Shown here: piece after piece, positions 13,518-43,555 of the stretch | How positions within the stretch are numbered: position 1 is the stretch's first letter | How the letters are laid out: each line of letters starts with the position of its first letter | DNA from: a virus | Strand: one strand, 5' to 3' | IMG/VR virus record: IMGVR_UViG_3300046501_000558 | Span: 1 to 64,000 of that record | Length of the DNA: 64,000 nucleotides | Position numbers and translations under genes: made by a program | The notes under the pieces: model-generated | The model's database searches: none | Told to the model about the DNA's origin: nothing | The model's input: only the letters and a program-made list of their open reading frames with translations

Positions 13518-13977
13518 AGTGTTCCCCAAGGTTTAGGTCTTTAAATTCCTTTAAAGGTGTTACTGTCATTGTATTTTTGGAAAGGTTCTCTTTTACCCAC
13601 CGTATATATTCAGGATCCATGTTAGAAACATCAACGACAAGAATAGGCGGCTGAATGGCGTATATCGCCTTTTTAGCGAGAATATGACACATAGCTTGTC
13701 GCATATCATTCATGTAAAGATCCTCATGAGCGGCTCTTAATAAATGCTCTATAGCAACATCATTCACAGACTCACAAATTGCTCTACATTCTTCGCAATA
13801 TTGCTTGAGAGCATTAAAGTACTTTTCATCTGTTTCTTTAATTATTTCATCCTCAGGTTTGTTAAATGAATCGGGCATCCATCGTATGCCTGCGGTGTAT
13901 GAGGTGTATAAAGCTTGATGGAAATTACCCCGTCTTAAATGTTCTGAAAAGATTATTTGCTTAAATTGCTTAGACAT
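13501..13977 (-). CDS. Unknown protein downstream of an octad array
   Basis: 158 residues, soluble. The C-terminal half has an alternating hydrophobic core (IQPPILVVDVSNMDPEYIRWV). Cys residues cluster at YCEECRAICE. No family recognised. Immediately upstream (13987-14050) is one of the GATC octad arrays, with the nearest octad ~10 bp before the start codon, so transcription or translation of this gene may be controlled by whatever binds there. Confidence 0.55.
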   Translation of the reverse strand: MSKQFKQIIFSEHLRRGNFHQALYTSYTAGIRWMPDSFNKPEDEIIKETDEKYFNALKQYCEECRAICESVNDVAIEHLLRAAHEDLYMNDMRQAMCHILAKKAIYAIQPPILVVDVSNMDPEYIRWVKENLSKNTMTVTPLKEFKDLNLGEHYASIK

Positions 13978-13986
13978 AAAAACCTA

Positions 13987-14050
13987 TGATCATATTTACA
14001 AATGTGCAAATGATCATTTATCCATTTAACAAAATGATCATTTGCACATA
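13987..14050. repeat. GATC octad array A
   Basis: Read in 8 bp steps from 13987: TGATCATA, TTTACAAA, TGTGCAAA, TGATCATT, TATCCATT, TAACAAAA, TGATCATT, TGCACATA. GATC occurs at 13988, 14012 and 14036, exactly 24 bp apart. The array lies in the gap upstream of the 13977 start. Confidence 0.8.
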
Positions 14051-14078
14051 TATTAATTACTTATTAAGTATCTGAAGT

Positions 14079-27795: not shown

Positions 27796-29457
27796 TCATG
27801 CTACAGCTCTCATTTGTGAATCTGATTTATCAAAAGGATTATTTGCACGTGCGATCGACATCATTGGGTACGGCGAAACACTATTACCGACCATATTGAC
27901 TTGATCCTTTTTAGAAAATGGCTTCCCATCATGGCCGTGCTCGATGATGTAAGAATCAGGAAAGCCTTGAGCCTTATACAGCTCTCGCGGGTGAAGCATT
28001 CGCATTCGAATATCGACTATTAGCCATGGCTCCCCTTTTATCCAAACCGTTACTAACGCTAAGCGGTCTTTTGTAGTAACTGTATCCATTGGTTGCGTAA
28101 GGTCCCGTGCATCCCCATTACCGTAAAAATTGATAAGAAAAGATGCGACACGCAAAGCGCCGTCTAAATTTTCTTTACTTAACGTTGCAGAGACTAGCTG
28201 CTGCTGACTCCCTGAATTTGTTATTGTTGTTAAAGGTTCATTTAAAGTGCGCCCATCTATTTCATTAAAACCACCGTTAGCCTGCATCATGTATGCCGCT
28301 ACTACAGCATGATGCCCCCCTTTAACTTGAGCGCATATAGTCGAAAGAGGGTCTTCAACTGACCAATTTCTTTGCTGTGAAGCGTTAGCAAACTCGGTTA
28401 GATACGGAGCCAAAATTGGACTAACCAAAGCACTATGCCCGCCGTATGCGGATGTCGTTGTAGCTAATGGATCCTTAATACTGTGACCTACACCAGTTCT
28501 AAAGTCTCTACTGATAAACGGCGCTGCTGTATTAACAAAAAAAGGATCTTTTGCATCAATCACAAACTTCTGCAAGCCGCGTGCAATGCGTTTCATAGTG
28601 GCATCAGCTAAATGCTTTGGCCTACCGAATATTGATTTTCCGAGATCTGAAAAATCTATACATTCCGCTGCCGCTTTCCATTTCGTTTGACCACGTTTCG
28701 GATCCTTATGTAAAAGTGGATCTTCCCAATTAATAGGCTGGCCGTCACAGCGTGCAACCAAGAAAAGGCGGTCCCGAGTTGTTGGCGCACCAAAGTCCGA
28801 AGCTTTTAATCGTTTCCAATCGACCACGTAGCCAAGTTTTTCAAGACTTTTGACAAAATGACGCCATGTTTTGCCTTTTAATTTTGGATTAGGTACTAAA
28901 AATTGATTATGTCGCGGTACTCGCTCTCCTGGTTCTGCAACCCGATTAATGAGTTTGTTATTCACTTTTATTTTTTCGAGTGTGACAACGCGACCTGTAT
29001 CTTTATCTCTTTTTGCTATTAAAGGCCCCCAATTAAGGATCTGTCTTACATTTTCCATGCTAATCAGATCTGGCTTAACCTTACCCGCAAACTTAATGAC
29101 TACCCAACTAAGATCCCTTATTTCTTTCTTACGTGGTTGCCCACCTGCAGCTTGAGAGTGATGAGTGCAATCAGGACTTGCATGGAACCAGCCAACGGGG
29201 TAGCCGTCACATATTGCAATGGGATCTACTGCAAAAACATCTTGTACGTAATGCTTTGTGTGTGGATGGTTCGCCGCATGCATCGAAATGGCTTTGGGAT
29301 TATGGTTTACCGCTGCATATACTGTACGGTTTAAGCCCATTTCAAGGCCTGTGCTTGCTCCACCACCACCAGCAAAGTAGTCGATGATAATCTTTTCACC
29401 AAAATTTAAAGCAAACTGAGTTTTAAAGGTTTTCGAGCAATCTACAAAACTGGTCAT
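27796..29457 (-). CDS. C5 cytosine DNA methyltransferase
   Basis: 553 residues. Motif I DYFAGGGGASTGLEMGL binds S-adenosylmethionine. Motif IV is SPDCTHHSQA, with the catalytic Cys in DC rather than the usual PC. Motif VI is SMENVRQI (ENV), motif VIII is TTRDRLFLVARC, and motif X is NMVGNSVSPYPM near the C-terminus. The region between VIII and X (~230-400) is the target-recognition domain and is long. No restriction enzyme lies beside it, so it is probably an orphan that protects the element from host restriction or marks DNA epigenetically. The ATG overlaps the upstream gene's stop by 4 bp. Confidence 0.9.
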   Translation of the reverse strand: MTSFVDCSKTFKTQFALNFGEKIIIDYFAGGGGASTGLEMGLNRTVYAAVNHNPKAISMHAANHPHTKHYVQDVFAVDPIAICDGYPVGWFHASPDCTHHSQAAGGQPRKKEIRDLSWVVIKFAGKVKPDLISMENVRQILNWGPLIAKRDKDTGRVVTLEKIKVNNKLINRVAEPGERVPRHNQFLVPNPKLKGKTWRHFVKSLEKLGYVVDWKRLKASDFGAPTTRDRLFLVARCDGQPINWEDPLLHKDPKRGQTKWKAAAECIDFSDLGKSIFGRPKHLADATMKRIARGLQKFVIDAKDPFFVNTAAPFISRDFRTGVGHSIKDPLATTTSAYGGHSALVSPILAPYLTEFANASQQRNWSVEDPLSTICAQVKGGHHAVVAAYMMQANGGFNEIDGRTLNEPLTTITNSGSQQQLVSATLSKENLDGALRVASFLINFYGNGDARDLTQPMDTVTTKDRLALVTVWIKGEPWLIVDIRMRMLHPRELYKAQGFPDSYIIEHGHDGKPFSKKDQVNMVGNSVSPYPMMSIARANNPFDKSDSQMRAVA

Positions 29458-29708
29458 ATTGAGAACCCACCAATAAGAACAGCATTACTTGGGCATTTCT
29501 TTAAAAAAAATATTTGGTCCCGAACCCACTGATCAAGATGCCTTTCTATTTGCTCATTGCTTTGAAAAGTTGGTCGCTTAAACGTTATAGCAACGTTATC
29601 AAATTGGTTTTTAACTGATAGAACGGCGTTACTATATTTTGATAAAACTAAGTAACGAATATCTTGTGAAACACTTTCATTATTGAAAATTAACGGTTTT
29701 TCTTTCAT
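29454..29708 (-). CDS. Small unknown protein between an octad array and a methyltransferase
   Basis: 84 residues, mixed, no motif (starts MKEKPLIFNNESVSQDIRYL). It overlaps the methyltransferase start by 4 bp and is preceded by octad array B (29725-29780), so array B sits at the promoter of a small-protein + methyltransferase operon. Confidence 0.5.
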   Translation of the reverse strand: MKEKPLIFNNESVSQDIRYLVLSKYSNAVLSVKNQFDNVAITFKRPTFQSNEQIERHLDQWVRDQIFFLKKCPSNAVLIGGFSI

Positions 29709-29724
29709 AAAAGCCTCTTAAAAT

Positions 29725-29780
29725 TGATCAATCAACCAAATGATCATTTATACATATGTGCAAATGATCATTTGTACCTA
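29725..29780. repeat. GATC octad array B
   Basis: 8 bp steps from 29725: TGATCAAT, CAACCAAA, TGATCATT, TATACATA, TGTGCAAA, TGATCATT, TGTACCTA. GATC at 29726, 29742 and 29766 (spacing 16 and 24). Just upstream of the 29708 start. Confidence 0.8.
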
Positions 29781-29843
29781 TTTTTAATACCTTGATTTGT
29801 GGATCAAGCTCCCTAAACTTGATCCTTAATCTTGCTTAGGCTA

Positions 29844-31196
29844 TTAATCCATCACTTCATTTAAGTAACTTACAATTTGCTCACCAATCCATTTCATAAC
29901 TGGTACAGCCATGGAGTTACCTAACGCCGCATATCTTCGAGTGTCTGGACAATCACACTCTTTCTTTCCGCGGTAAGGTATCTGTGTGTAATTATCAGGG
30001 AAACCCTGAAGCCGCTCGCATTCGAGCGGAGTTAAACGCCGTACAACACCTTCATGAATAAAATTCTGACAGTGCGTACCTTGTGAAGCAGTTAAAGCAC
30101 CAGCAATATTTCCATCGCCTCCGACTGGTCTAACTTCATCACGGCTATTCTGTTGATAGCTCACCCCATGAACGTCAGTTCTTGTTAAACAAGCTGTTCT
30201 CTCCAAAGTTGGCGTAACAGAGTTACCGCCATTTTCAGCTTTACGGCCAATCCAATTACCAGGAAAACCAAAAACATTAGAAATTGGTTTTGTGCCTGTT
30301 GAAGCCCTTAATGTTGGTGCTCTTTCAAGCGCCACATCATCTGCAGCATTACTATTACTGCAAAAAATAAGATCTTCATTAAACAAAATCTTTCCGTCTT
30401 CAACGGATTGATTGCCTAAACCTTTCTCATCGGACTTACATAAAGTACCAATAGGATCTTTATGGCTTATCCAGCTATTTGTGCTTGAATTTTTAGCGCT
30501 TGCTCGAATGGCTCGGGCAATCTCTTTCCGCGTTTTGCGGACCGGCGCAGAATCCCGTCGCACGCCGTTGAACTCAAATAATATTTTCTCGGCACGGAAC
30601 TCTTCTCTAGCACTTCCGACAACAAAGAGACGCCGCCTACGTTGGGGAACTCCGAAATATTGGGCATCGAGGATCCGCCAAGATGCTGACCTTTGGGGTC
30701 CAAACAAAAAACCTGCGTTTTTCCACTTCTTCCCTGCTGGTTGAAGCTCAATATCTTCTCCGGCAAGTGCTCCCAGAAAGCACCCGTATGCATTGTCTTT
30801 TGTAGACAAGACTCCGGGGACGTTTTCCCACACAACAATAACGGGTTCTTTTCCATTCTTAATTCTCACTTCATCAATTGCATTAGCGATATCAATAAAC
30901 ACAAGTGACAGCTGTCCTCTTGAGTCATTTAACGAGTTTCTAAGTCCCGCAACACTAAAAGCTTGGCACGGCGTGCCACCTATTAAAATGTCAGGAGCTT
31001 CGATTTCCTCATTCCTAATTTTCTCCGCAATACTTGTCATATCACCGAGATTAGGCACATTAGGGTAGTGATGATCTAAAACAGCACTTGGAAATTGTTC
31101 AATTTCCGCAAACCATATCGGATCCCACCCAAGGCTATGCCACGCAACCGTCGGAGCTTCAATTCCCGAACAGACAGAGCCATACGTCAAAACCAT
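29844..31196 (-). CDS. Second C5 cytosine DNA methyltransferase
   Basis: 450 residues. Motif I is SVCSGIEAPTVAWHSLGW, motif IV is GGTPCQAFSVAG (classic PCQ), motif VI is WENVPGV, motif VIII is VPQRRRRLFVVG, and motif X is GNSMAVPVMKWIGEQI. It is not closely similar to the 27796-29457 enzyme outside these motifs and has a different motif IV context, so the two probably recognise different sites. Again no restriction endonuclease is nearby. It may help the element evade several host restriction systems. Confidence 0.92.
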   Translation of the reverse strand: MVLTYGSVCSGIEAPTVAWHSLGWDPIWFAEIEQFPSAVLDHHYPNVPNLGDMTSIAEKIRNEEIEAPDILIGGTPCQAFSVAGLRNSLNDSRGQLSLVFIDIANAIDEVRIKNGKEPVIVVWENVPGVLSTKDNAYGCFLGALAGEDIELQPAGKKWKNAGFLFGPQRSASWRILDAQYFGVPQRRRRLFVVGSAREEFRAEKILFEFNGVRRDSAPVRKTRKEIARAIRASAKNSSTNSWISHKDPIGTLCKSDEKGLGNQSVEDGKILFNEDLIFCSNSNAADDVALERAPTLRASTGTKPISNVFGFPGNWIGRKAENGGNSVTPTLERTACLTRTDVHGVSYQQNSRDEVRPVGGDGNIAGALTASQGTHCQNFIHEGVVRRLTPLECERLQGFPDNYTQIPYRGKKECDCPDTRRYAALGNSMAVPVMKWIGEQIVSYLNEVMD

Positions 31197-31416: not shown

Positions 31417-32673
31417 TTAAATTTCTAACTCATTAACACTACTTTCAATGTCATCCTCTGTACCATCTCGCTCCTTCTCATTTTTCTGAAGGTTTAAAAG
31501 GCCATTGTTTAATTGACAGTGAACATAATAATCAAAGTCGATTAGCTTGATGTCATTTAACAGGCTTGGCTTACTTCTCAAAAGGGTGGCAAGAATCTCT
31601 TTTGCAAGTTTTCGATTACTTACTTCATCATCTGTTGTTGAACCTGCATAAAACTCACTGTAATCATTCAAGAATTGTGGGCATGACACCAAGAACCCGA
31701 TTTGCTTAGGTGTAAAGGAATCAATACGGTTAATATACTTCTCACGATCAGGTGATTTAAAGTGAGAGCCATCGTCGTTGTAAGGTATACCCGCTTTTAA
31801 CAGCTTAGTTTTGAATTCATGTAACTTATCTTCAATCTTCTTAATACGATCTGAAGCTTTGTATTCGTAATTAAATCTCAGACCAACAATACTGAGGCCA
31901 CTTTTAATATTCTCGACCTTTAGAATTGTAATATTAGATAAGTCATTAATTTCTTTTATTGAAGGCTTAATAATACGGCGCTTTAAATTATCGATGTCAT
32001 TGTAAGAAGGCTTATCTTCTAAATCTAATGCAAATTTTAGATCATCTAAGGAAATTTCAAGAATATTTGATTTCCATTTATTTTCAATTAGCATTCGATA
32101 GATTCTCATTGAATAAAAGCCATCAAGTTGTGTCACTTGCTTTAATTCATGTGAAAAATATCCATCAAGCTTTTTATCATCTGCTTGATCAACTAATACC
32201 CGATAAAAGTATTCATAAAATTCTGGCGCAAAACGAATATCGATACTTTTACTTTTGGCAATATATTTGCAATAAGTAATCATCGGTACTTTTGCTGGCA
32301 CAGGTGAATCTGGTTCTTTGACTTTCATTATTAGTGGCTGGAATTTGTTATAAATTCGAAGCAATGCTTTGTCTGCAGTCTTTTCTATAAGCTTTAATTC
32401 AGCTTCTTCTAAAGCAGTTGCTTCGCCACTAATGACTTTTTTATGTGTAAGTTCAGCGTAATTACGCGCAGAGATACGAATCTTTGAATTAGGATCAATA
32501 GGGCCTTTATTTTCAAGCTCTAACTTCCGTATAACAATCATAGCCGCAAACATTAGCTTTTCTTGGTTTGGATCGTTACTATAGCTTGCGTAAGCCATGG
32601 TGTTGCGAGTTACTACAAGAGAGTCTTTCTTTACTCGTTTAGCTATTATTAGCTCATCTTTTTGTTCGCTCAT
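31417..32673 (-). CDS. Rep_3-superfamily plasmid replication initiator
   Basis: 418 residues with the two winged-helix domains of RepB/RepA initiators. WH1 has TRNTMAYASY, the RNYAELTHKK region and the helix of FYSMRIYRMLIE. The second domain has NLKRRIIKPSIKEINDLSN followed by NITILKVENIKSG, the family's signature. A charged C-terminal extension follows. The upstream region carries the iterons it should bind and a DnaA box. It initiates plasmid-mode replication and probably autoregulates. It is transcribed away from the origin. Confidence 0.9.
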   Translation of the reverse strand: MSEQKDELIIAKRVKKDSLVVTRNTMAYASYSNDPNQEKLMFAAMIVIRKLELENKGPIDPNSKIRISARNYAELTHKKVISGEATALEEAELKLIEKTADKALLRIYNKFQPLIMKVKEPDSPVPAKVPMITYCKYIAKSKSIDIRFAPEFYEYFYRVLVDQADDKKLDGYFSHELKQVTQLDGFYSMRIYRMLIENKWKSNILEISLDDLKFALDLEDKPSYNDIDNLKRRIIKPSIKEINDLSNITILKVENIKSGLSIVGLRFNYEYKASDRIKKIEDKLHEFKTKLLKAGIPYNDDGSHFKSPDREKYINRIDSFTPKQIGFLVSCPQFLNDYSEFYAGSTTDDEVSNRKLAKEILATLLRSKPSLLNDIKLIDFDYYVHCQLNNGLLNLQKNEKERDGTEDDIESSVNELEI

Positions 32674-32788
32674 ACAGAAAACCCCAACAAAACCTACAAA
32701 TTATCATTTTGTACGTTTATAACATCTTTTTAGTTATCATACTTCATTAAGTTAGAATATTTACATACAGAAACACCGTTAATTTCGA

Positions 32789-33290
32789 GACATATTGTAC
32801 GGTTTCTCTAAGAATCTCTTTTTTTAGCCCCCTCCCCTCCCGTTTTTAGCCATTTTTTGAGACATGTTGTACGGTTTCAATGTTCAGCATGGCTCTATAT
32901 CCAGATAAAAAGCTTATTTTTTATTATAGTTTGTGGTGCTTTCCCCCTAAATGCAGTATTTGAGACAAGTTGTACGGTTTTAAAATAATTAAGACAAGTT
33001 GTACGGTTAATCAATTTTGAATAATTTTTATATAGAAAATGCTCTAAATCATCGATTTGATTACTTTTTATCTTAATGTGGATAATTCTGTTGATAAAAT
33101 GAGACGTTTTGTACGGAGAAAAGACAAGTTGTACGGTTTCTGAGACATGTTGTAGGGTTTCACAGACACGTTGTACGGGTTTAAAGACGTCCTGTACGGT
33201 CATCAAGACATGTTGTAGGGTTTTAAATACACCTTGTACGGTCTTTGAGACATGTTGTACGGGTTTGGAGACATGTTGTACGGAGGTTGG
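32789..33290 (+). repeat. Replication origin iterons (13 copies)
   Basis: The core GACATGTTGTACGG and its variants occur in the same orientation. Dispersed copies have their GAC at 32789, 32861, 32964 and 32993. A clustered series has its GAC at 33103, then exactly every 21 bp at 33123, 33144, 33165, 33186, 33207, 33228 (degenerate TAC), 33249 and 33270. Exact 21 bp spacing is two helical turns and is typical of iterons bound by a Rep_3 initiator. This region (32674-33510) has no gene. Confidence 0.93.
33077..33085 (-). promoter_or_regulatory. DnaA box
   Basis: TGTGGATAA on the plus strand is the complement of the consensus TTATCCACA, with no mismatch. It lies between the dispersed iterons and the clustered iterons. 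Confidence 0.8.
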
Positions 33291-33329
33291 ATTGTAAGAT
33301 GTTGATTAATATAAATTATTTAACACTCT

Positions 33330-33409
33330 AAAACCATACCTAAAACCTTCTAAAACCCTCTCTAAAACCTTTTAAAACCCTTCTAAAAACTATTTAAAAA
33401 TATATAAAA
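33330..33409. other. Phased A-tracts (curved DNA) next to the iterons
   Basis: Eight runs of four or five A start at 33330, 33342, 33352, 33364, 33374, 33385, 33396 and 33406, a mean spacing of about 11 bp, close to the helical repeat. Phased A-tracts bend DNA. Many origins have such a bend beside their iterons. Confidence 0.7.
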
Positions 33410-33510
33410 CCCTCATATTTTTTTTAAATTCATTTTTAAATTTATTTCACACGAAAGATACACCTCGAAAGGCATATCCATCAGATCTTAAAAAATATTG
33501 CTATGTAAGC

Positions 33511-34056
33511 TTACATACTAGTAACTGTGCTTAGCAATGAATCCAGTGATACAAATTTTTCAATTAAGTCTGTATTGCAATGTGCTGACCCTACCCAACC
33601 TGAATTTGAAAAATAAATTTCAGAATCACTAGGCCCTGCTCTGTGATAACACGATGAAAGAAAATTGAAATGAGTTGCACCAACTGGTGCTTTTTTAAGA
33701 ATGGAAAGAATATTGTTTTTTGAAAAAAGTTCTTTTATCCATAATTTGAAATAAGCATGTTTAAAATCTGTAGTCTTAATGATACTTCTTCCTTTAACAA
33801 ACTCATTCCATTGTTCATAAGTAAGATCTAATGCAAACCAATCATTACTCACTTTATTGAAACAATGAGGGATCTTAAATTGCCCCATTTTTTGTTCAGG
33901 ATCAAATTTATAAAAATACACTCCGGTTGTATCAATACATACATCGGTCGCATCTACAGGCATGTTTTTATAAATTTGATGATCAAATAAAAATACTTTA
34001 TTCATTGCTTTATTCCGCATCTGAGGTTTTAAAAATTGGTTTAAGACATTTAGCAA
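33511..34056 (-). CDS. Unknown protein upstream of the origin, 181 aa
   Basis: Soluble, aromatic-rich (YFKLWIKELF, NDWFALDL), no family recognised. Several Met residues near the start allow other starts; Met18 (MNKVFLFDHQ) is the main alternative. It overlaps the previous gene's end by 7 bp and is the last gene before the origin. Confidence 0.5.
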   Translation of the reverse strand: MLNVLNQFLKPQMRNKAMNKVFLFDHQIYKNMPVDATDVCIDTTGVYFYKFDPEQKMGQFKIPHCFNKVSNDWFALDLTYEQWNEFVKGRSIIKTTDFKHAYFKLWIKELFSKNNILSILKKAPVGATHFNFLSSCYHRAGPSDSEIYFSNSGWVGSAHCNTDLIEKFVSLDSLLSTVTSM

Positions 34057-34412
34057 TTTTTTAACCTTTTTAACCGAGCATTTTGATATGTGGCCGTTAG
34101 GAATGTACAGATATTACATCGACAACCCACATGATAGCCATTACGCCCATGTTTAAGATTAGGTGGTAGAACCCCCTTTTCTTTAAACTCATTTTTATAG
34201 TTTTCCAATCTCTTAGAATTAGCTTGGATGGTTTTATCTTTAATTTCTTTTTTATAAAAATCTACACAGACCGAACATCTGCATTGATAAATATTAAAAG
34301 CCGTGTAAGAGCCATGTTTTGTTCTTTTTGTGGCGAACTCTCCTGTTTCTTTAAACTTTTGTTGTAGTAAAGCCCTAGAAGCTTTTTGATTTTGTGGTTT
34401 ATCATGATTCAT
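34050..34412 (-). CDS. Double KHG...CRCxxC zinc-motif protein
   Basis: 120 residues from ATG 34412; the frame is open further, but that would place octads inside the gene, and a GAGA element precedes ATG 34412. Two copies of a motif are present: TKHGSYTAFNIYQCRCSVC and LKHGRNGYHVGCRCNIC. Each reads KHG, ~10 residues, CRCxxC. This is like the HGT...CRCxxC zinc-motif proteins common in phages of actinobacteria and elsewhere. A nucleic-acid-binding role is likely; the target is unknown. It is preceded by octad array C. Confidence 0.65.
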   Translation of the reverse strand: MNHDKPQNQKASRALLQQKFKETGEFATKRTKHGSYTAFNIYQCRCSVCVDFYKKEIKDKTIQANSKRLENYKNEFKEKGVLPPNLKHGRNGYHVGCRCNICTFLTATYQNARLKRLKNC

Positions 34413-34492
34413 GATCATTTTCTCAATTGGGTAAAAGTACATTTGTGTAAATGATCATTTGTACATATGTTTATAAGTGCAAATGATCATTT
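34412..34492. repeat. GATC octad array C
   Basis: GATC at 34413, 34453 and 34485 (spacing 40 and 32). Intermediate octads include TGTGTAAA, TGTACATA and AGTGCAAA. Fills the gap between 34412 and the gene ending at 34497. Confidence 0.75.
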
Positions 34493-34496
34493 TTGG

Positions 34497-34904
34497 TTAA
34501 ATAAAATCTCTAATGTTTTTCTCTATTTGAAACATTCCATCACGAATATTTTGAACACCGTATTTAATAAGATTGTATTTTCCTTCACCTTTGGCATATC
34601 CAATCTTTCTTAAAGCTACAGTAGTAATTCCCAAGTAATCAGCTAGAGCTTTTTGTCTTCCACTCCCCAATTTAATCCAGACCTTTAAACGATTATGCAA
34701 ATCTATTGCCTGACGTTCTTCACGCTCAATTTTCTTGATATTTACCTTAATTTGTTGCATCAAATCATGATCAACGCGATAAGTGAAGATCCTGGTATGT
34801 AAAGTCTGCCGCTTAATATCCAAAAGGGCAGATAGTTGTGACAAACGTCCACGGCGTTTGCTGATCCATTTATTTAAAAAAATATAATCTTTAATTAAGG
34901 ACAT
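34497..34904 (-). CDS. Putative tandem-HTH DNA-binding protein
   Basis: 135 residues from ATG 34904, 3 bp after the Dam stop; an upstream in-frame start would overlap Dam. Two similar segments, RGRLSQLSALLDIKRQTLHT and GRQKALADYLGITTVALRKI, both look like Cro-type helix-turn-helix units separated by ~60 residues. That suggests an internal duplication able to read two adjacent DNA sites. Its position between Dam and array C makes it an alternative reader of the octads. Regulator call by eye. Confidence 0.6.
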   Translation of the reverse strand: MSLIKDYIFLNKWISKRRGRLSQLSALLDIKRQTLHTRIFTYRVDHDLMQQIKVNIKKIEREERQAIDLHNRLKVWIKLGSGRQKALADYLGITTVALRKIGYAKGEGKYNLIKYGVQNIRDGMFQIEKNIRDFI

Positions 34905-34906
34905 TT

Positions 34907-35725
34907 TTAAATCCCATAAAACAAATCTTGTTGACGTTCGGCCTGAGGATTTATCCAAAGAATTTCCTCACGACCAACTGAACCTGCTTGACTAGTAGCA
35001 GCAACATTTTTTACAGCCTTTTGCCAGCCTAACCGGTTATATAGATCATTTTCATAACCACACAAAATGACCTGTCCTTTAACATTTTTAAGAACATCTA
35101 TTAATTGCTCATGCTCTGCAAAAGACATCTCATGTTTATAGGCAGTACCTGCAGTGTTGCGAACATCTAATAAATAAGGCGGATCAATAAAGAATAAAGT
35201 GTCTAGTCGGTCATGATCTTGAATGACCTGAAGGGCATCACGATTTTCAATCATGACCTTACTTAAACGTTTAGCTGCCTCAAGAATTAAGTTTGGTTGC
35301 CGTTGCCAGATAGTTACTAAGTCTGTACAACCTCGACCAGTATCCAGCCTAAACCCCGTATTACCATTTGAAGCCCCAACGCTACTGAAACCCATTTGTG
35401 CCCTAATAACTAAACGTCTTGCGCGTTCTACAGAATCTTCAGCCACTTCACGAGAAAGGTTAAATTCAGTTCTAGAATAAGGTGTAAGTTGAATTTGACT
35501 AGCCAACGTCTTAGAAAGATTAGGATCACGAAGCACTTCAAAAAAATTAACTACTTCGTTATCTAGATCGTTATAAACCTCGCAGCGACTTGGCGTTTTA
35601 TTCAAGAGAACAGAAGCACCGCCACCAAATGGCTCAACGTAAGTGTCATGCAATGGAAAATAAGAAAGTATCCAATTAGATAATCTATATTTACCGCCAT
35701 GGTAGCGAATTAGAGGATGATTCAT
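34907..35725 (-). CDS. dam: DNA adenine methyltransferase (Dam-like, GATC type)
   Basis: 272 residues, class D12. The N-terminal YHGGKYRLSNWIL precedes motif I YVEPFGGGASVLLNKT (S-adenosylmethionine pocket) and NDLDNEVVNFF. Catalytic motif IV FIDPPYLL lies near residue 180, followed by CGYENDLYN. That order is Dam-like and most such enzymes methylate GATC; the exact site is inferred. GATC is the core of the octad arrays on this same element, including array C next door. Confidence 0.88.
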   Translation of the reverse strand: MNHPLIRYHGGKYRLSNWILSYFPLHDTYVEPFGGGASVLLNKTPSRCEVYNDLDNEVVNFFEVLRDPNLSKTLASQIQLTPYSRTEFNLSREVAEDSVERARRLVIRAQMGFSSVGASNGNTGFRLDTGRGCTDLVTIWQRQPNLILEAAKRLSKVMIENRDALQVIQDHDRLDTLFFIDPPYLLDVRNTAGTAYKHEMSFAEHEQLIDVLKNVKGQVILCGYENDLYNRLGWQKAVKNVAATSQAGSVGREEILWINPQAERQQDLFYGI

Positions 35726-37691: not shown

Positions 37692-37973
37692 TTAGCTTCT
37701 TATTAGTTGCTCTACAGTCACAGCACCTTTTGATGCTTCGGAGAGTGCTTTTGCAGCTGAATATGAAATTGCTGTTTCACCGCTTAAATATCTACTCATT
37801 GTTCCCTGAGAAACTTTTAGCTTCAAAGCTGCCTCTTCTTGGCTACGAAATAACAATCTAAAGTTAGTCTGTAAAAGCAAAAGCTTCTCTTGATTATCAG
37901 TAGAAAGCCCCATAAAAATTTTATTCAAACGAGCTTCACGTGACGCTCGTCTCACAGTATTAACATTTTGCAT
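37692..37973 (-). CDS. Cro-like repressor
   Basis: 93 residues with one HTH (RSQEEAALKLKVSQGTMSRY then LSGETAISYSAAKALSEA), near the size of a Cro. It is divergent from the C1-like gene and begins the replication operon. It should be the antirepressive arm of the lysis-lysogeny switch; its operators would lie in 37974-38201. Confidence 0.75.
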   Translation of the reverse strand: MQNVNTVRRASREARLNKIFMGLSTDNQEKLLLLQTNFRLLFRSQEEAALKLKVSQGTMSRYLSGETAISYSAAKALSEASKGAVTVEQLIRS

Positions 37974-38201: not shown

Positions 38202-38921
38202 ATGTCAAATATTAACTCTCTTCCTGATAATAAAAATTTAATAGCAAATACAATTGGCGATCGTATTGAAGCACTAATGTTAAAGAATAAAATTGATCAA
38301 GAAACATTGGCTAAAAGTGCTGGAACAACACAACCAACTATAAGCAGAATTATGTCTGGTAAGACTTCCAATAGTAGAACCATTCCTAAAATTGCGAACG
38401 TTTTAAATACAACTGTTGAGTATTTAGTCTTTGGAACGGGAATTGAATCTCTTTCTTCATCAGAAGCGTCGGAAAGTTTGCGTATAAAAGAAAATGATTT
38501 TATGCTAATTCGCATGTATGACAATGTGTCCGAGAACACAGACCTGCATACGAATAAAAATGCTGAGGACATTTTAATGTTAGAAAAGAGTTTGATACCA
38601 CTGGGGTCCTGTTCAGATGATTTACGTTATTTAAAAGTTGATGATAATTCTATGTCGCCTAAAATACCTGTGTCAGCGCGAGTATTCTTCAATATGAAAG
38701 ATACTAATGTTATTGCGGGTAAAGCATATGCTATAAAATACGGACACTTACGTGAACAAGTAAGAATTTTATATCCTCTACCAGACGGTGGTTATCGAGT
38801 TAGAGTAACTACAGAAATGTCAGAAGAATTTCCAGAAATTCAAGTTAGTAAGCAAGAAATTGATAATCAAACCTTCAAAGTTTTGGGGCGGGTATTTAGT
38901 GTTACTTCCCTATGGGAATAA
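38202..38921 (+). CDS. C1/LexA-like repressor with S24 domain
   Basis: 239 residues. The N-terminal HTH is at ~20-75 (RIEALMLKNKIDQETLAKSA ... RIMSGKTSNSRTIPKIANVL) and a C-terminal S24 peptidase-like domain at ~140-235. The Ser-containing DDNSMSP is present. The matching catalytic Lys usually lies in a VKRL-like strand; here the strand reads EQVRILYPLPDGG with Arg at that place, and no Ala-Gly or Cys-Gly cleavage pair was found in the linker. It could therefore be an S24 repressor that does not self-cleave, or one induced another way. It represses lytic genes in the lysogen/plasmid state. Confidence 0.8.
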   Translation: MSNINSLPDNKNLIANTIGDRIEALMLKNKIDQETLAKSAGTTQPTISRIMSGKTSNSRTIPKIANVLNTTVEYLVFGTGIESLSSSEASESLRIKENDFMLIRMYDNVSENTDLHTNKNAEDILMLEKSLIPLGSCSDDLRYLKVDDNSMSPKIPVSARVFFNMKDTNVIAGKAYAIKYGHLREQVRILYPLPDGGYRVRVTTEMSEEFPEIQVSKQEIDNQTFKVLGRVFSVTSLWE

Positions 38922-38935
38922 TGTTTTATGAATAG

Positions 38936-38958
38936 AACGGGCGAAAGCCCGTTTTTTT
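38936..38958 (+). terminator. Terminator after the repressor
   Basis: AACGGGC-GAAA-GCCCGTT followed by T7, a textbook intrinsic terminator. Confidence 0.92.
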
Positions 38959-38982
38959 ATGCATACAAAGGTGAATAATTAA

Positions 38983-39091
38983 ATGCTTTTATGTATACAA
39001 ATCAAAAATATTTACAAATTGTTACGTTTATAAATGCGCATAAAAATAAAACTATTTATGCAAGCTTGCATAAAAATATGCAGTTATGTAT
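38983..39091. promoter_or_regulatory. Operator cluster upstream of a membrane-protein gene
   Basis: Sites at 38983-38996 (one mismatch), 39058-39071 (ATGCA-AGCT-TGCAT, perfectly palindromic) and 39078-39091 (perfect). The last two are 20 bp apart. They precede ATG 39122. Confidence 0.65.
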
Positions 39092-39121
39092 ATTTAAGAC
39101 CTGTTACTTAGGAGCTTAAAT

Positions 39122-39469
39122 ATGCAAACAACCCTACATGTACAAGAACCTGTACAGGTTCATGTACAAAAATCTAATTCTGTTAAGCTAAATTTAATTT
39201 TAGTGCAAATCATTTTATTTGTTTTAACTTGCATTATTCACCTTATTTTAGTTCTTCGTTCAATTAAGTCATTTTTTACGTATGTATTTACTATCCCTTT
39301 AGTTGGCTACGTTTCTGTGTATGTAATTTTAAGTGCCCTCTCCTTCTTATTTGTTGTACATGTGGTCGATGCTAATGAAATCGAACAAGAAGGACGATTT
39401 CAAGCTAACCAGCATTACATTCAACTAGTTGAGACAAAGAACCCCGAAGGAATATTTATTTATAAATAA
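39122..39469 (+). CDS. Small membrane protein, 115 aa
   Basis: Two hydrophobic segments (LILVQIILFVLTCIIHLILV and a second at ~65-85 ending in LFVVHVV) predict two membrane passes. Its first residues (LHVQEPVQVHVQ) come from a short DNA palindrome AACCTGTACAGGTT at ~39150. The stop TAA is followed directly by octad array D. Function unknown; a superinfection-immunity role is a guess. Confidence 0.6.
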   Translation: MQTTLHVQEPVQVHVQKSNSVKLNLILVQIILFVLTCIIHLILVLRSIKSFFTYVFTIPLVGYVSVYVILSALSFLFVVHVVDANEIEQEGRFQANQHYIQLVETKNPEGIFIYK

Positions 39470-39470
39470 A

Positions 39471-39567
39471 TGATCATTTTTCCGTATGTGCAAATGATCA
39501 TTTACACATTTGATCAAATGTTCATATGTGCAAAGGATCAATCCTAAAAACACACAAAAGATCAAAT
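39471..39567. repeat. GATC octad array D, upstream of the ERF gene
   Basis: Twelve 8 bp steps from 39471: TGATCATT, TTTCCGTA, TGTGCAAA, TGATCATT, TACACATT, TGATCAAA, TGTTCATA, TGTGCAAA, GGATCAAT, CCTAAAAA, CACACAAA, AGATCAAA. GATC at 39472, 39496, 39512, 39536 and 39560 (spacings 24, 16, 24, 24), and the degenerate GTTC at 39520 is also in phase. Confidence 0.85.
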
Positions 39568-39594
39568 TTATATTATTAATTTTAAGGAGCGTTT

Positions 39595-40338
39595 ATGAAC
39601 CAATTTATACTGCAACAAGATGTCCAGCTTGAGACGAAAGGTTTCGCCGTTTTGAATGGGCTTTTGAATATTCAAAAAAAACTAGCAATCACGGGTATAC
39701 CAAAAGATAGACGTACAAAAAGTACAAACCAACGTTTTCAAAACTTCAATTTCCGAAGTATTGATGATTTTTATAATGCCATCTCACCTTTATTGGCTGA
39801 AGAAAGCATTATATGTATGCCTGATGTTCTTGAACAAACACAGACAACAATCCAAACTCCTAACGGAAGTACTCAGCGTTTTTCATTTGTAAGAGTTAAA
39901 TATACTTTTATTTCCTGTATAGATGGTTCATACAAATCAGGTGTATGTGTAGGTGAAGCTATGGACTCAGCTGATAAGTCTCTTTCGAAAGCAATGAGTA
40001 TTGCCCAAAAAACTTTTTTTGAACAAGCCTTTTCTATTCCTACGACGCCACAAGAAAATAATCGATTTTTTATGGGTAGCGAAATAGTTCAAATAAACAA
40101 TCATCAGTTATCTGAAAACAATACAATTAGTTCAAGTAGTACCTTCCCGACCCAAGAAGAATTTGATCAATTTATAAAGCTGCTAGGTGCAATAGGAAGG
40201 TCTTATCAAGCATATTTAACAAAACGTCAGTTAAGACATGAGCAGATAACGCGAGACATTCTTAGAGTAGAAACTTCTAAGATTGAAAAATATATCAATA
40301 ATCAAAATTCCAGTAATTGTGTTGCTGTGTACCAATGA
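39595..40338 (+). CDS. erf: ERF-family single-strand annealing recombinase
   Basis: 247 residues. The ERF core is FQNFNFRSIDDFYNAISPLL, then a beta region, then VGEAMDSADKSLSKAMSIAQ followed by KTFFEQAFSIPT, as in P22 Erf and relatives. ERF proteins pair complementary single strands for recombination or end repair. Strong ribosome site AAGGAG 7 nt before ATG 39595. The C-terminal ~70 residues are less conserved. The stop codon TGA is the first bases of octad array E, so the gene flows into the array. Expressed under control of array D. Confidence 0.85.
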   Translation: MNQFILQQDVQLETKGFAVLNGLLNIQKKLAITGIPKDRRTKSTNQRFQNFNFRSIDDFYNAISPLLAEESIICMPDVLEQTQTTIQTPNGSTQRFSFVRVKYTFISCIDGSYKSGVCVGEAMDSADKSLSKAMSIAQKTFFEQAFSIPTTPQENNRFFMGSEIVQINNHQLSENNTISSSSTFPTQEEFDQFIKLLGAIGRSYQAYLTKRQLRHEQITRDILRVETSKIEKYINNQNSSNCVAVYQ

Positions 40339-40840
40339 TCATTTTTTTATATGTGTAAATGATCATTTGCACATATGATCATAAATACATTTGATCATTT
40401 ACACGGTTGAGTGAATGATCAGTATTGGATTTGATCATTAGGAGATATGATTTTTTAGCCAATAGAGAAAATGATCAGAAGACCGAATGATCATTTAAAC
40501 AAAAGATCATATGTTGTTTTGACTTAGTGATCATTATAAGAACTGATCATTTGTGGAAATGATCTTTTATCCAAAAGTTAAATTGATCAGAAGTTCGAAT
40601 GATCATTTAAACAAAAGATCATAGGTAGTTTTGAGTTAGTGATCATTATAAAAACTGATCATTTGTGGAAATGATCTTTTATCCAAAAGTTAAATTGATC
40701 AGAAGTTCGAATGATCATTTAAACAAAAGATCATAGGTAGTTTTGAGTTAGTGATCATTAGTTAATTATTGGCTTTGTACAAAAGTGTAAATGATCACAA
40801 GTGTAAATGATCATTTGTATGTACTACCAAGGGATCTTTA
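40336..40840. repeat. GATC octad array E (main array, upstream of parA)
   Basis: Twenty-five GATC at 40337, 40361, 40377, 40393, 40417, 40433, 40473, 40489, 40505, 40529, 40545, 40561, 40585, 40601, 40617, 40641, 40657, 40673, 40697, 40713, 40729, 40753, 40793, 40809 and 40833. All share the same phase: every distance is a multiple of 8. There is no gene in this ~500 bp. It is the best candidate for the partition centromere. Confidence 0.85.
40473..40760. repeat. 112 bp tandem repeat inside array E
   Basis: Units begin at 40473, 40585 and 40697 (about 2.6 copies). Each is 14 octads long and holds six GATC spaced 16, 16, 24, 16, 16 and 24 bp. Copies 2 and 3 are nearly identical, while copy 1 differs at several positions. 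Confidence 0.9.
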
Positions 40841-40962
40841 TTTAAGTGGAATTTTTTGGAAATAAGTTTAACTCCATAAATATGGATTATTTTCCGTCTA
40901 CCTTATTTGGAGGTGTAAAAGAACTAAAGATTTAGCGGTCATAAGTAGTTGTAAATTTAAAT

Positions 40963-41050
40963 TGATCAAAAACATAAATGATCATATGTACAAATGATCA
41001 TTTGTAAAATTGATCTTTTGTGTAAATGAACTATTGTACAAGTGAACATA
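40963..41050. repeat. GATC octad array F, in front of parA
   Basis: GATC at 40964, 40980, 40996 and 41012, exactly 16 bp apart, followed in phase by GAAC at 41028 and 41044. Other octads include TGTACAAA and TGTGTAAA. It lies in the probable parA promoter region. Confidence 0.8.
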
Positions 41051-41182
41051 ATGAGTAAAATGATTAAACCCGATGTACATGGCACTGCAAATACCTGTTT
41101 TAAAAATGCTTGTATTTGCCTAATTTGTAAAAACGTCAAAAGCAAATTGATAAGTGACTATGTAAACAATATGGATTTCCGC

Positions 41183-41818
41183 ATGAAAACAAAATATATC
41201 TCGTCGTTACAGCTAAAGGGTGGGGTTGGTAAATCAACTCTAGCTACTAACCTTGTTGGTTATTTCATCTCAAAAAAGAAAAAAGTATTAGGTATTGATG
41301 CAGATATGAAACAGGGGACTATGTTCGCATGGTCTAAAATGTTCTCTCATGAGAATTATAAATCTGTTGGTGTTCGCAACATTGATGAGTTATTAGAAGT
41401 TCTACGTGATGCTAACGGCGTTTACGATATCGTCATTACAGATCTACCTCCGCGTATTGAAGAACTTGCGAGTTCTGCACTTTTGTTTAGTGACTTAGTC
41501 TTATTGCCTGTCCCGATTTCTGCTCCCGATGTATGGGCTGCCTCTGATCTTGAAAAACTAATAACTGCTGCAAAGCAAGAGGGTGACGTTACTCTTCGTG
41601 TTGTTTGGAATAAATTTAAAACAACGAAACGAAATGTTGAAATGAAAGACGAAGTTAAAGATCTTTTAGGGCATGAAGAAATCAAACAAGTTATTTCTGA
41701 TTATATTGCTTATAGATATGTAATAGGTATTGGCTCTTGGGTGGGTGAATATACTCACCAAAAAGCTAAAGCTGAATTTTTAGAATTCTGTAAAGAAGTT
41801 GAAAAGTTAATTAAATAG
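41183..41818 (+). CDS. parA: ParA-family partition ATPase
   Basis: 211 residues from ATG 41183. The deviant Walker A KGGVGKSTLATNL starts ~13 residues in; the Walker A' / switch-I region VLGIDADMKQGT and the Walker B IVITDLPPR follow. The size fits the short type Ib ParA, which pairs with a small ribbon-helix-helix centromere protein. The frame is open upstream to GTG 41042 and ATG 41051; a 47-residue Cys-rich extension is possible but has no ribosome site, so the shorter start is used. Stop TAG is followed directly by TGA. It segregates plasmid copies at division. Confidence 0.85.
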   Translation: MKTKYISSLQLKGGVGKSTLATNLVGYFISKKKKVLGIDADMKQGTMFAWSKMFSHENYKSVGVRNIDELLEVLRDANGVYDIVITDLPPRIEELASSALLFSDLVLLPVPISAPDVWAASDLEKLITAAKQEGDVTLRVVWNKFKTTKRNVEMKDEVKDLLGHEEIKQVISDYIAYRYVIGIGSWVGEYTHQKAKAEFLEFCKEVEKLIK

Positions 41819-41828
41819 TGAGGTTGAT

Positions 41829-42095
41829 ATGACGACGACGAGGCCGAAGCCGCAATTTCAGAAACCAGGAGATGCTAACGATCGTTTTTCTAGTGCAGCT
41901 CAATTTGCTAAGTCTACAAAAGAAATTGACTCTACAACTTCTATTGTTGATGAGGGGCGCGAAAGCTGGGAGTGCCCGAACGATTTGCGCAAGCAGTTGA
42001 AGCACTTTATTGTTGACTCCAGCAAGTTTAAAACCAAAAAAGAATTTTTAAATCAATGCCTCAGAGATGGTCTGGAAAAATACCAAGGCAAATAA
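41829..42095 (+). CDS. Ribbon-helix-helix centromere-binding protein (ParB-like)
   Basis: 88 residues: ~50 flexible, basic and polar residues then an RHH-like C-terminus (WECPNDLRKQLKHFIVDSSK then FKTKKEFLNQCLRDGLEKY). GAGG ribosome site 5 nt before ATG 41829, 10 bp after parA. In type Ib systems (ParG, omega) this protein binds centromere repeats, represses its own operon, and uses its flexible tail to stimulate ParA. It is the natural reader of the octad arrays. RHH fold assigned by eye; DNA target is inferred. Confidence 0.7.
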   Translation: MTTTRPKPQFQKPGDANDRFSSAAQFAKSTKEIDSTTSIVDEGRESWECPNDLRKQLKHFIVDSSKFKTKKEFLNQCLRDGLEKYQGK

Positions 42096-42100
42096 AAAGG

Positions 42101-42129
42101 AACCTAGGCTGAAAACCTAGGTTTTTTTT
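42101..42129 (+). terminator. Terminator after the partition operon
   Basis: AACCTAGG / ACCTAGGTT stem with T8, 6 bp after the RHH stop. Confidence 0.92.
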
Positions 42130-42145
42130 CAATAATAGTTAATTT

Positions 42146-42177
42146 ATACAATAATGTATTATATGCGTTTTACGCAT
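42146..42177. promoter_or_regulatory. Operator palindrome downstream of the partition operon
   Basis: Perfect ATACA-ATAA-TGTAT at 42146-42159, followed by ATGCG-TTTTA-CGCAT (5 bp spacer) at 42163-42177. It lies between convergent genes, so its target promoter is unclear. Confidence 0.5.
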
Positions 42178-42214
42178 ATAGCCTAAGAAACATATGCAAT
42201 TAAAAAAATTAAAA

Positions 42215-42326
42215 AGATCAATCGTACATATGTACTAATGATCAAATGTAAAAAAAATCATAATGAACTTTGATCAAATGATCAAATGATCAAATGATCA
42301 AATGATCAAATGATCAAATGATCATT
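42215..42326. repeat. GATC octad array G, perfect TGATCAAA tandem
   Basis: GATC at 42216, 42240 and 42272, then every 8 bp at 42280, 42288, 42296, 42304, 42312 and 42320. Six copies of TGATCAAA (42271-42318) are tandem and identical and are followed by TGATCATT. This is the clearest demonstration of the 8 bp unit. Confidence 0.92.
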
Positions 42327-42346
42327 AGTAAATTATTGATTATTAG

Positions 42347-43555
42347 CTAATTAATTACAGAACAAAACTTATTATCTAAGTAATCTGCCCACCATTGCAT
42401 CATTTTGGAACGGTGCTCAACATACTCAGCATGGTTGTATGTGCCGCGTACTTTGTTTTCGTCGGCATGTGAAAGTTGTGCTTCGATCCATTCGCGTTTA
42501 AATAATCCTGAATCATTTAGTACTGTGCTCATGGTTGCTCGTAATCCATGGGGAGATAATTCATCGTTTGTATATCCCATTCGACGTATAAGTTGACAGA
42601 AAACATTGACGCCCATTTGCTTATTTGCTTTGTAAGGGCTATTGAAAAGGTACTTTTCGCCAGCGCTCCAAGCCTCAGCTTCCTTAATAATTTCTATAAC
42701 TTGGTCTGAAAGCGGGATTAGATATTCTGGAACATTTGGATCTATAAGAGCCAGTTTTCTAAGCTGCTTTACATTCTCAGGTGGGATTCGCCAAACCTTT
42801 TTATCTAAATCAAACTGAGTTATTTGTGCTTGTCGGACTTCGGCACTTCGAACACCGGTATATGCTAAAAGTCTCAAAGCACGTTTAGTAATTGGAAATG
42901 CTTCAGCTTGTTCAAGTCGCGGACCAAAATCACTAAGCTCTGAATCTCTTAAATGCGGGTAATTACGTTTTACTGTATTGATTGCTATAAGTGATCTTAA
43001 ATTGTCTGCAAGGTTGTATTCACAGTATTCATGCAGAACGGCGAATTTATAAATATCTTTAAGATAAGTACATGTCTTTTCGACCGTATTTTTTGCTTCT
43101 CGTACTTCAATTGATCTAATTAGTTGGATTAAATCTAATTTGGTCACTTCACTAAAAGTTTTTTCTCCTAAGGCTGGCAATATGTCAAAATCAAGTGAAT
43201 TCCTAGAAGTCTTTATCATTCCAGCCCGAGGAATTTCACCAAGGTATTTTTTTTGTCGGAATGCATGCCAGCTTTCTGCCACATCTCCAAAAGTTAGAAT
43301 CTTTGGTTTAATAATAGGTTCAACGCTTTTGTTTTTTTGAAAATTGTCTCTTAATGTGCGGGCTTCTTTTAGGCTAATCTCTGGGTACATGCCAATTTTA
43401 ACAAGTGGTCGTTTTCCCGATGAATCTGTATATCTAACTTTCCATGTTTTTTTCCCAGAGATGTTAATGTATAGATATAAGCCATCACCGTCATTCACAC
43501 AGAAAACTTCTGTTGACGGTTTGAGCTGGCGTATCTTAGTTTCGGTAAGAGCCAT
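42347..43555 (-). CDS. int: Tyrosine recombinase (phage integrase)
   Basis: 402 residues of the P4-type. An arm-binding N-terminal domain (KIRQLKPSTE, DGDGLYLYINISGKKTWKVR) is followed by a core-binding region and a catalytic domain containing YTGVRSAEVRQAQ (Arg I), SPHGLRATMSTVL (HxLR) and LSHADENKVRGTYNHAEY (His and nucleophile Tyr). It integrates or excises the element or resolves multimers. Its neighbours are plasmid genes and array G. The host attachment site is not visible. Confidence 0.92.
   Translation of the reverse strand: MALTETKIRQLKPSTEVFCVNDGDGLYLYINISGKKTWKVRYTDSSGKRPLVKIGMYPEISLKEARTLRDNFQKNKSVEPIIKPKILTFGDVAESWHAFRQKKYLGEIPRAGMIKTSRNSLDFDILPALGEKTFSEVTKLDLIQLIRSIEVREAKNTVEKTCTYLKDIYKFAVLHEYCEYNLADNLRSLIAINTVKRNYPHLRDSELSDFGPRLEQAEAFPITKRALRLLAYTGVRSAEVRQAQITQFDLDKKVWRIPPENVKQLRKLALIDPNVPEYLIPLSDQVIEIIKEAEAWSAGEKYLFNSPYKANKQMGVNVFCQLIRRMGYTNDELSPHGLRATMSTVLNDSGLFKREWIEAQLSHADENKVRGTYNHAEYVEHRSKMMQWWADYLDNKFCSVIN

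Follow-up and report, generated by a model that had tools for sequence, protein, structure and literature searches.

The window analysed here comprises the first 64,000 nucleotides of IMG/VR virus record IMGVR_UViG_3300046501_000558 (81,477 bp) and contains a candidate partition gene pair surrounded by arrays of 8-bp DNA repeats. The record encodes phage families (portal, large terminase, tail sheath, baseplate, head morphogenesis and endolysin) together with a Rep_3 initiator, ParA, ERF and an integrase, and is, judged by this gene content, a phage-plasmid. Its host is probably Acinetobacter, since all 280 of the 280 plasmid records with similar DNA belong to that genus. A phage collection gave no match when searched with the DNA or with the presumed centromere-binding protein (CBP) encoded beside parA, and its ParA matches, in 21 records, all fell below 60% identity. 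The locus is laid out as follows, with arrays given without strand:

39462–39573: array D, a run of octads that precedes the ERF gene (39595–40338)
40335–40838: array E, 63 octads in one register with 25 GATC cores, between the ERF gene and parA
40962–41049: array F, immediately before the parA reading frame, with 11 octads that keep a second register of their own
41183–41818, plus strand: ParA-type partition ATPase, 211 amino acids from the ATG at 41183
41829–42095, plus strand: presumed CBP, 88 amino acids, PHROG 26557 (function unknown), ribbon-helix-helix (RHH)-like
42214–42333: array G, octads in the interval that separates the CBP gene from a convergent integrase gene

The initial annotation of this DNA described a lattice of GATC sites in 8-bp register next to parA, with two GAAC sites in phase with the last of them, and the register is confirmed throughout. 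Within 40300–41100 there are 29 GATC tetramers, whose residues modulo 8 are constant within each array: all 25 sites of array E (40337–40833) equal 1 modulo 8, with gaps of 16, 24 or 40 bp, and the four of array F, spaced 16 bp apart at 40964, 40980, 40996 and 41012, equal 4 modulo 8, a phase shared by GAAC at 41028 and 41044. The two registers are distinct and the arrays are separated by a gap of 131 bp. The accompanying argument, that 25 sites would not hold one register by chance, was right about non-randomness but needs a caveat: a 112-bp tandem repeat (2.9 copies of 14 octads each) lies inside array E at 40432–40760, so the 25 sites are not independent, a point which the annotation had missed. 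After removal of 40545–40752, 14 GATC sites are left, all in phase, for which uniform placement gives 8^-13 = 1.8e-12. GATC pairs outside five masked arrays, a background set that still included two arrays discovered later, show little preference for 8-bp spacing (spacing 8, n=1; 16, n=1; 24, n=3; 32, n=0; 40, n=4). In a motif-free lag test on E and F together, period 8 stood highest among periods 5–12 (z = 11.6, 0 of 200 shuffles as high); the same period was best in arrays D and G, again with 0 of 200 shuffles as high, and period 7 stayed at background in E and F, in D and in G.

The repeating unit is an 8-bp box, roughly WTGNNCAW, with GATC as its commonest core (51 of the 130 octads of the record, repeat copies counted). 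Among 64 non-GATC octads drawn from seven arrays, with repeat copies at 40545–40752 removed, G occupies column 3 in 37 and C column 6 in 34, with both present in 19; when the same octads are read in the seven shifted frames, G3 and C6 coincide 0 or 1 times. Octads without GATC thus retain G3 and C6, which identifies the unit as a TGNNCA-type box and not as GATC itself. These GNNC boxes sit in AT-rich octads with AT-rich 4-bp spacers. The counts recover the same lattice that had been proposed earlier, with an 8-bp unit and degenerate octads between the GATC copies, and TGATCA is indeed its commonest and strongest form in this record.

A position-weight scan of the entire record, with weights trained on five of the arrays eventually recognised, separates seven arrays (scores 40–208, array E being placed at 40335–40822) from everything else (at most 12.8); Markov sampling of the whole record, done 10 times, scored 16.1 at most. 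Five of the seven, unseen in the initial annotation, lie beyond E and F, namely D and G above and the following three:

34411–34490: array A, octads over the 5′ end of minus-strand gene 34050–34442
29724–29787: an array of octads between the cytosine-methylase gene 29844–31196 (minus strand) and the 5′ end of gene 29454–29708 (minus strand)
13970–14057: an array of octads at the 5′ end of minus-strand gene 13501–13977

Six of the seven arrays are found at or upstream of a gene's 5′ end, E standing behind F. Array G holds 6.8 perfect tandem TGATCAAA units at 42271–42324. A promoter scan of 38900–42400 was uninformative (8 found versus a shuffle mean of 18.1).

The neighbouring genes have the organisation of a type Ib partition module, in which a small Walker-type ParA without an N-terminal helix-turn-helix (HTH) domain is followed directly by a small CBP gene and preceded by a centromere of direct or inverted repeats. 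ParA carries KGGVGKS near its N-terminus and its Pfam matches are P-loop families with no HTH; its best NCBIfam family is ParA_partition, below the cut-off (115.8 of 180 bits). Possible in-frame upstream starts at 41042 (GTG) and 41051 (ATG) could add a leader of about 44 amino acids. The CBP gene begins 10 bp after the parA stop codon, and the pair is present in all nine of the related elements compared below. Across these elements the CBP has a variable N-terminus, modelled at low predicted local distance difference test (pLDDT) values, that nevertheless contains invariant K12, P13, R19, F20, A23, F26 and A27 (R19 in 9/9), and a conserved C-terminal half. The protein is rare, being found in 4 of 348 genomes of the family of one relative, G001, and in the same four among 175 genomes of its genus; single-protein scans for close relatives returned one viral locus or none, and alignment queries did better.

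Structural models give an indication of the CBP's fold. In the AlphaFold2 monomer of the window CBP (pLDDT 64, predicted template modelling score (pTM) 0.30), helices at 51–63 and 70–85 follow a presumed strand at 44–49. Foldseek listed one match for this model, at E 8.7, and offered two chains to VIA: 4p7d, the HicB3 antitoxin (Z 4.8, root-mean-square deviation (rmsd) 1.4, 37 residues aligned), and chain E of the ParDE1 complex 8c24 (Z 4.2, rmsd 2.2, 43 aligned), which we take to be the ParD1 antitoxin; both antitoxins are presumably RHH proteins. The CBP of G001 is a natural fusion of two CBP repeats in one 159-amino-acid protein (L014:6654–7133), and its model scored pLDDT 64 and pTM 0.45. 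The first four Foldseek matches are chains of the F-plasmid relaxosome (the top one at E 0.28, prob 0.94), in entries that contain TraY, averaging three chains each. VIA places eight entries at the top, six of the relaxosome (Z 6.9–7.2; rmsd 2.7 over 80 residues for the first) and two of DndE (Z 6.2 and 5.8), after which the ninth row drops to Z 3.0; rows at Z ≤3.0 were not counted as relatives. According to PMC10853773, DndE consists of two RHH domains in tandem, and TraY is built on the same duplicated plan. The entries that stand well above the rest, being those of TraY and DndE, are therefore all tandem-RHH, although the two-repeat CBP gave no sequence match to either protein. Structural matching of these two low-confidence models, as opposed to sequence, supports, short of proof, an RHH fold for the CBP, which is the most likely reader of the octads. 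As a separate observation, G001, the bearer of the two-repeat CBP, also has the most perfect tandem arrays of the nine elements.

The comparison covers the window record and eight relatives: L5 (also G002; a partial contig, the first 48,967 of 50,805 bases), pGFJ2 from A. soli, G001 (Acinetobacter sp. CFCC 10889, 80,000 of 80,025 contig bases), G003, G004, G029, G121 and G119. Loci L009 and L010 have CBP genes identical to those of L002 and L004 and were not counted beside them. Dispersed arrays occur in all eight relatives, at 8-bp pitch in six and at 8+9 = 17 bp in two. When 6-mers are ranked by pairs in 8-bp register, the lattice core comes first or second in eight of the nine elements and fourth in G119. 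TGATCA ranks first in the window record (41 on register, 18 off) and second in L5 (18/6); TGAACA/TGTTCA ranks first in pGFJ2 (15/3), G003 (48/7) and G004 (42/1); and ATCATA/TATGAT, part of a TGATTA octad, ranks first in G001 and G029. TGAACA is first in G121 yet lies mostly off register (10 on, 22 off), as does the fourth-ranked core of G119 (10/46); in both elements the core recurs at 8, 9 and 17 bp, that is, as pairs 8 bp apart on a 17-bp pitch. Each element thus uses essentially one core class: TGATCA, TGAACA/TGTTCA or TGATTA.

Chains of at least three cores in register, counted with core 6-mers selected after this ranking, number 7 in the window record, 6 in L5, 3 in pGFJ2, 9 in G003, 8 in G004, 6 in G029, 6 in G121 and 9 in G119 (with steps of 8, 9 or 17 bp in the last two); G001 has 15 that overlap, since several 6-mers of one octad were counted, and that correspond to eight arrays. 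Reversed sequences yield no such chain in any of the nine elements. Cores of the other classes and three control core sets give none apart from one 3-member TGATTA chain in L5, and control pitches of 7 and 9 bp give chains only with the AT-rich core of G001 (3 and 5) and, in one case, with GAAC in G119. The octads of G003 and pGFJ2 were trimmed by eye in the octad reading, so that their octad counts favour the lattice; the ranking and the chain counts are independent of this trimming. A local lag test applied to 13 regions favoured period 8 in 12 of them; in 10, no more than 2 of 200 shuffles reached the observed value. GATC chains in register are lacking in seven of the nine elements, all of which have lattices, and in relatives whose genes follow the same order, like arrays are built on TGAACA or TGATTA cores. 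GATC is therefore not essential, and of the originally proposed GATC-octad lattice it is the 8-bp unit that endures.

The arrays also keep their places. The chain criterion places one directly upstream of parA in eight elements, and the octad reading adds pGFJ2 (5005–5084). Arrays follow a small membrane gene upstream of ERF in five of the nine elements, stand beside the first cytosine-methylase gene in four, and in six lie no more than 0.5 kb from gene 153 or the KHGT gene. Because chain positions match across elements, several arrays hold the same intergenic place while the set has another core. In L5 (L005, about 1420–1733) there is no ERF match and the gene seems decayed, with arrays remaining on both sides.

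By the convention for RHH proteins, alternate residues of the strand, here 44, 46 and 48, face the DNA. Strand arginines and polar residues of RHH proteins are described as contacting bases (PMC10853773). At these positions the CBPs read R-S-E in both TGATCA elements and R-N-D in all five TGAACA elements; in the TGATTA elements they read R-V-D in G029 and P-A-D and R-I-K in the two repeats of G001. The array core and the strand residues of the predicted reader thus appear to differ together among relatives. What tempers this pattern is the ParA tree, which needs only two core changes for the three classes and places the GAAC group weakly (48/44); since two events underlie the correlation, it is suggestive. 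It would fit a dispersed-centromere family in which a change of one or two strand residues brings a new code to all of an element's arrays at once (S46 with GATC, N46 with GAAC and V, A or I46 with TGATTA), the pitch remaining 8 bp in seven elements and being 8+9 in a single deep branch. The lineages would then form their own partition-incompatibility groups, and the table of residues and cores would amount to an RHH recognition code. We put this forward tentatively, at a little short of an even chance.

Several known systems bear comparison. The initial annotation named the omega protein of pSM19035 as the best analogue, and in its manner of working the likeness stands, with several arrays, some over promoters, and one dimer per repeat. 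The delta/omega system likewise combines a small ParA with a small DNA-binding partner and several dispersed short-repeat arrays in mixed orientations (PMC9499535, PMC5016525), and its arrays overlap promoters of maintenance genes (PMC5016525). The analogy fails on the repeat itself: parS is a 7-bp non-palindromic WATCACW, in contrast to the 8-bp box with palindromic TGATCA core found here, and a 7-bp period was looked for in E and F, D and G and stood at background, so this is not an omega-type heptad array. Omega is described as binding one dimer per 7-bp repeat and as needing at least four contiguous repeats for full ParA activation (PMC9499535), whereas degenerate boxes lie between the strong ones here, and no sequence homology of the CBP to omega was detected. 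TP228 also pairs a small ParA (ParF) with an RHH partner (ParG), whose flexible N-terminus carries an arginine finger that may be compared with the invariant R19. Its parH site is made of degenerate tetramer boxes with AT-rich spacers (PMC7308502) and resembles the GNNC boxes. It differs in being one continuous site plus operator, as against seven dispersed arrays, and no homology to the CBP was found.

Other parallels lie outside type Ib partition. MetJ is a chromosomal methionine regulator with no ParA, short operators and another target sequence. It is an RHH protein (PMC10853773) of which one homodimer is described as occupying each 8-bp box, two or more adjacent boxes being required (PMC3228920). 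The spacing is that of the present arrays, which means that an 8-bp period is not in itself new; no sequence homology of the CBP to solved proteins was seen. N15 is a phage-plasmid with dispersed centromere sites. Four inverted-repeat sites are reported for it (PMC7205306), so that more than one site serves its partition too, but it uses a SopB-type ParB and shows no 8-bp lattice. TraY and DndE, the best structural matches of the G001 CBP with two RHH domains per chain, are relaxosome and phosphorothioation proteins, not partition proteins.

We consider it likely that the lattice serves an Acinetobacter-type phage-plasmid as the main centromere and operator array of a type Ib-like partition module, with the CBP as the predicted ligand of the boxes. 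In this model the 88-residue CBP (41829–42095) would act as an RHH dimer that inserts its two-stranded ribbon into one TGNNCA box, and neighbouring dimers would polymerise along the lattice. Since these dimers would stand 8 bp apart, strong boxes (TGATCA) and degenerate ones (TGTGCA, TGTACA and others) could jointly nucleate a continuous filament. The protein–DNA filament would serve as the cargo handle for ParA and could at the same time repress the promoters beneath the arrays, the five further arrays being extra centromere copies and operators. The position of arrays at gene starts fits such a role by analogy, as type Ib CBPs also repress, and in pSM19035 the promoters of genes for copy number and maintenance lie under parS arrays (PMC5016525).

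Further features of the element are these:

27796–29457: a cytosine-methylase-type gene
29844–31196, minus strand: a second such gene, by a 63% homologue so annotated in pGFJ2
31417–32673, minus strand: Rep_3-type plasmid replication initiator
34907–35725: Dam-family D12 methylase gene (below the family cut-off)
37692–37973: Cro-like gene, DNA-binding or likely so
38202–38921: cI-like HTH/S24 gene, DNA-binding or likely so

Between array F and parA, 41051–41182 holds a short reading frame (MSK..P..HGT...CxCxxC) in frame with parA, whose counterpart in L002 is a separate open reading frame ending at parA; gene 34050–34442, beside array A, has two copies of a similar HGT/HGR...CxCxxC motif. Repeats distinct from the octads are also present: 21-bp tandem repeats at 33120–33283, upstream of the Rep_3 gene, are probably replication iterons, a DNA search with 32674–34500 giving no plasmid match, and a 39-bp tandem repeat (6.3 copies) lies at the start of the window, at 4–250.

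Of the other explanations, the strongest gives the arrays no centromere role: they would be nothing but operators of a repressor regulon that spans the element and is read by the CBP or by some other protein. The siting of six of the seven arrays at or upstream of gene starts is what such a regulon would show, with E again counted behind F. Array E, at about 500 bp, is nevertheless far longer than repression needs, array G lies between convergent ends, and the largest arrays flank parA and the CBP gene, the place described for type Ib centromeres (PMC5016525). We regard this as unlikely, noting that the two roles are not exclusive, as both coexist in pSM19035 and TP228. A reader other than the CBP, whether the cI-like or Cro-like protein or the integrase, would at least be a DNA-binding or probably DNA-binding product of the same element. 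None of the seven arrays falls in the cI/cro interval, however, and lattices are present in all nine elements while no homologue was detected of the integrase in seven, of the Cro-like protein in three (one of them the partial L5) and of the cI-like protein in one. Adjacent 8-bp boxes moreover suit RHH dimers rather than HTH palindromes, and we hold another reader to be very improbable.

The tetramer itself invites an explanation through GATC biology, by Dam-type methylation or SeqA-like binding, perhaps involving the element's own D12 methylase. Against this, seven relatives have lattices with GAAC or TGATTA cores and no GATC chains in register, and non-GATC octads hold the register. Nor does presence of the methylase track the core, since a Dam-family gene occurs in the GAAC-class elements pGFJ2, G003 and G004 and was not found in GATC-class L5, a partial contig. 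Dam is said to be absent from the genus Acinetobacter in one source (PMC10287943) and is mentioned in A. baumannii ATCC 17978 in another (PMC10483419). The chances of this explanation are about as slim as those of another reader. Slimmer still are those of neutral slippage, by which an 8-bp microsatellite would have expanded with no reader at all. It would account for the perfect tandems in array G and in several G001 arrays and for the 112-bp duplication in E, and TGNNCA tandems also occur in unrelated phage contigs; yet most octads are not copies of one another and still retain G3 and C6 in register, and the arrays keep their place between genes though the core differs, with one core class per element.

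Scans with DNA patterns bear on the same point. Two octad patterns gave 2 and 23 loci, four of them in the family records G003 and G004, and a third gave 13; neither the 21 non-family loci nor the 13 of the third pattern showed a match to the window genes. A CBP search in the records of 23 of these 34 loci (the 21 and 2 of the 13) found none, an empty answer that alone shows nothing, and a ParA-like P-loop reading frame was present at one of the 34, 11.8 kb from the array. As 21 of the 25 loci of the first two patterns lie outside the family, TGNNCA tandems alone do not identify the module. Non-family octads in 8-bp register (TGATCACC/TGCTCACC, TGTTCAAA, TGTTCACT and others) were seen at L061:8095–8212, L064:6876–6937, L067:2310–2371, L068:1738–1767 and L071:8198–8227.

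A number of observations weigh against the centromere and operator reading. Similar-box lattices exist, as just described, in phage contigs where neither a CBP nor a ParA close by was detected; array G sits between two genes that converge; and the pitch is 8+9 bp in two relatives. The local lag test was non-significant in three of its 13 regions, with 55 of 200 shuffles as high in L014 (73 bp), 159 in L025 and 199 in L004, where the best period was 7; L025 and L004 belong to the 17-bp class. In G029, G121 and G119 a motif-free scan of whole records misses every core array, and the evidence for these three is that of the core chains. In the window record the scan is unspecific: it marks 10 places at period 8, of which 7 are the arrays, but also 6 places at period 7 and another 14 at period 9. 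As to the protein, no Pfam or NCBIfam family matches the CBP significantly, and hmmsearch of Protein Data Bank chain sequences with a CBP profile, the search used for the comparisons with omega and ParG, gave 0 matches at E ≤10. Both models have the low confidence indicated by the scores above and DSSP assigns no strand to them, and VIA Z values under 8 can reflect a common arrangement.

What is unusual here is that relatives differ from one another in the whole set of their arrays and, together with it, in the presumed reader. Among the titles listed by literature searches on the named relatives, PHROG 26557, Acinetobacter phage-plasmid partition, and RHH proteins and centromeres of phage-plasmids, none concerns these arrays or this CBP family, the many and widely spread arrays of a phage-plasmid, or a core differing as a set; pGFJ2 is named in PMC10974035. 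If the centromere and operator reading is correct, PHROG 26557, a family of unknown function, would gain a function in partition, and the nine elements would offer a natural series in which the core has changed at least twice and the arrays vary along with the presumed centromere protein. Both the choice of bases by RHH proteins and the divergence of partition specificity, and with it incompatibility, would thereby become testable, and the dispersed arrays would bear on how a phage-plasmid could couple the segregation of its copies to the control of its genes.

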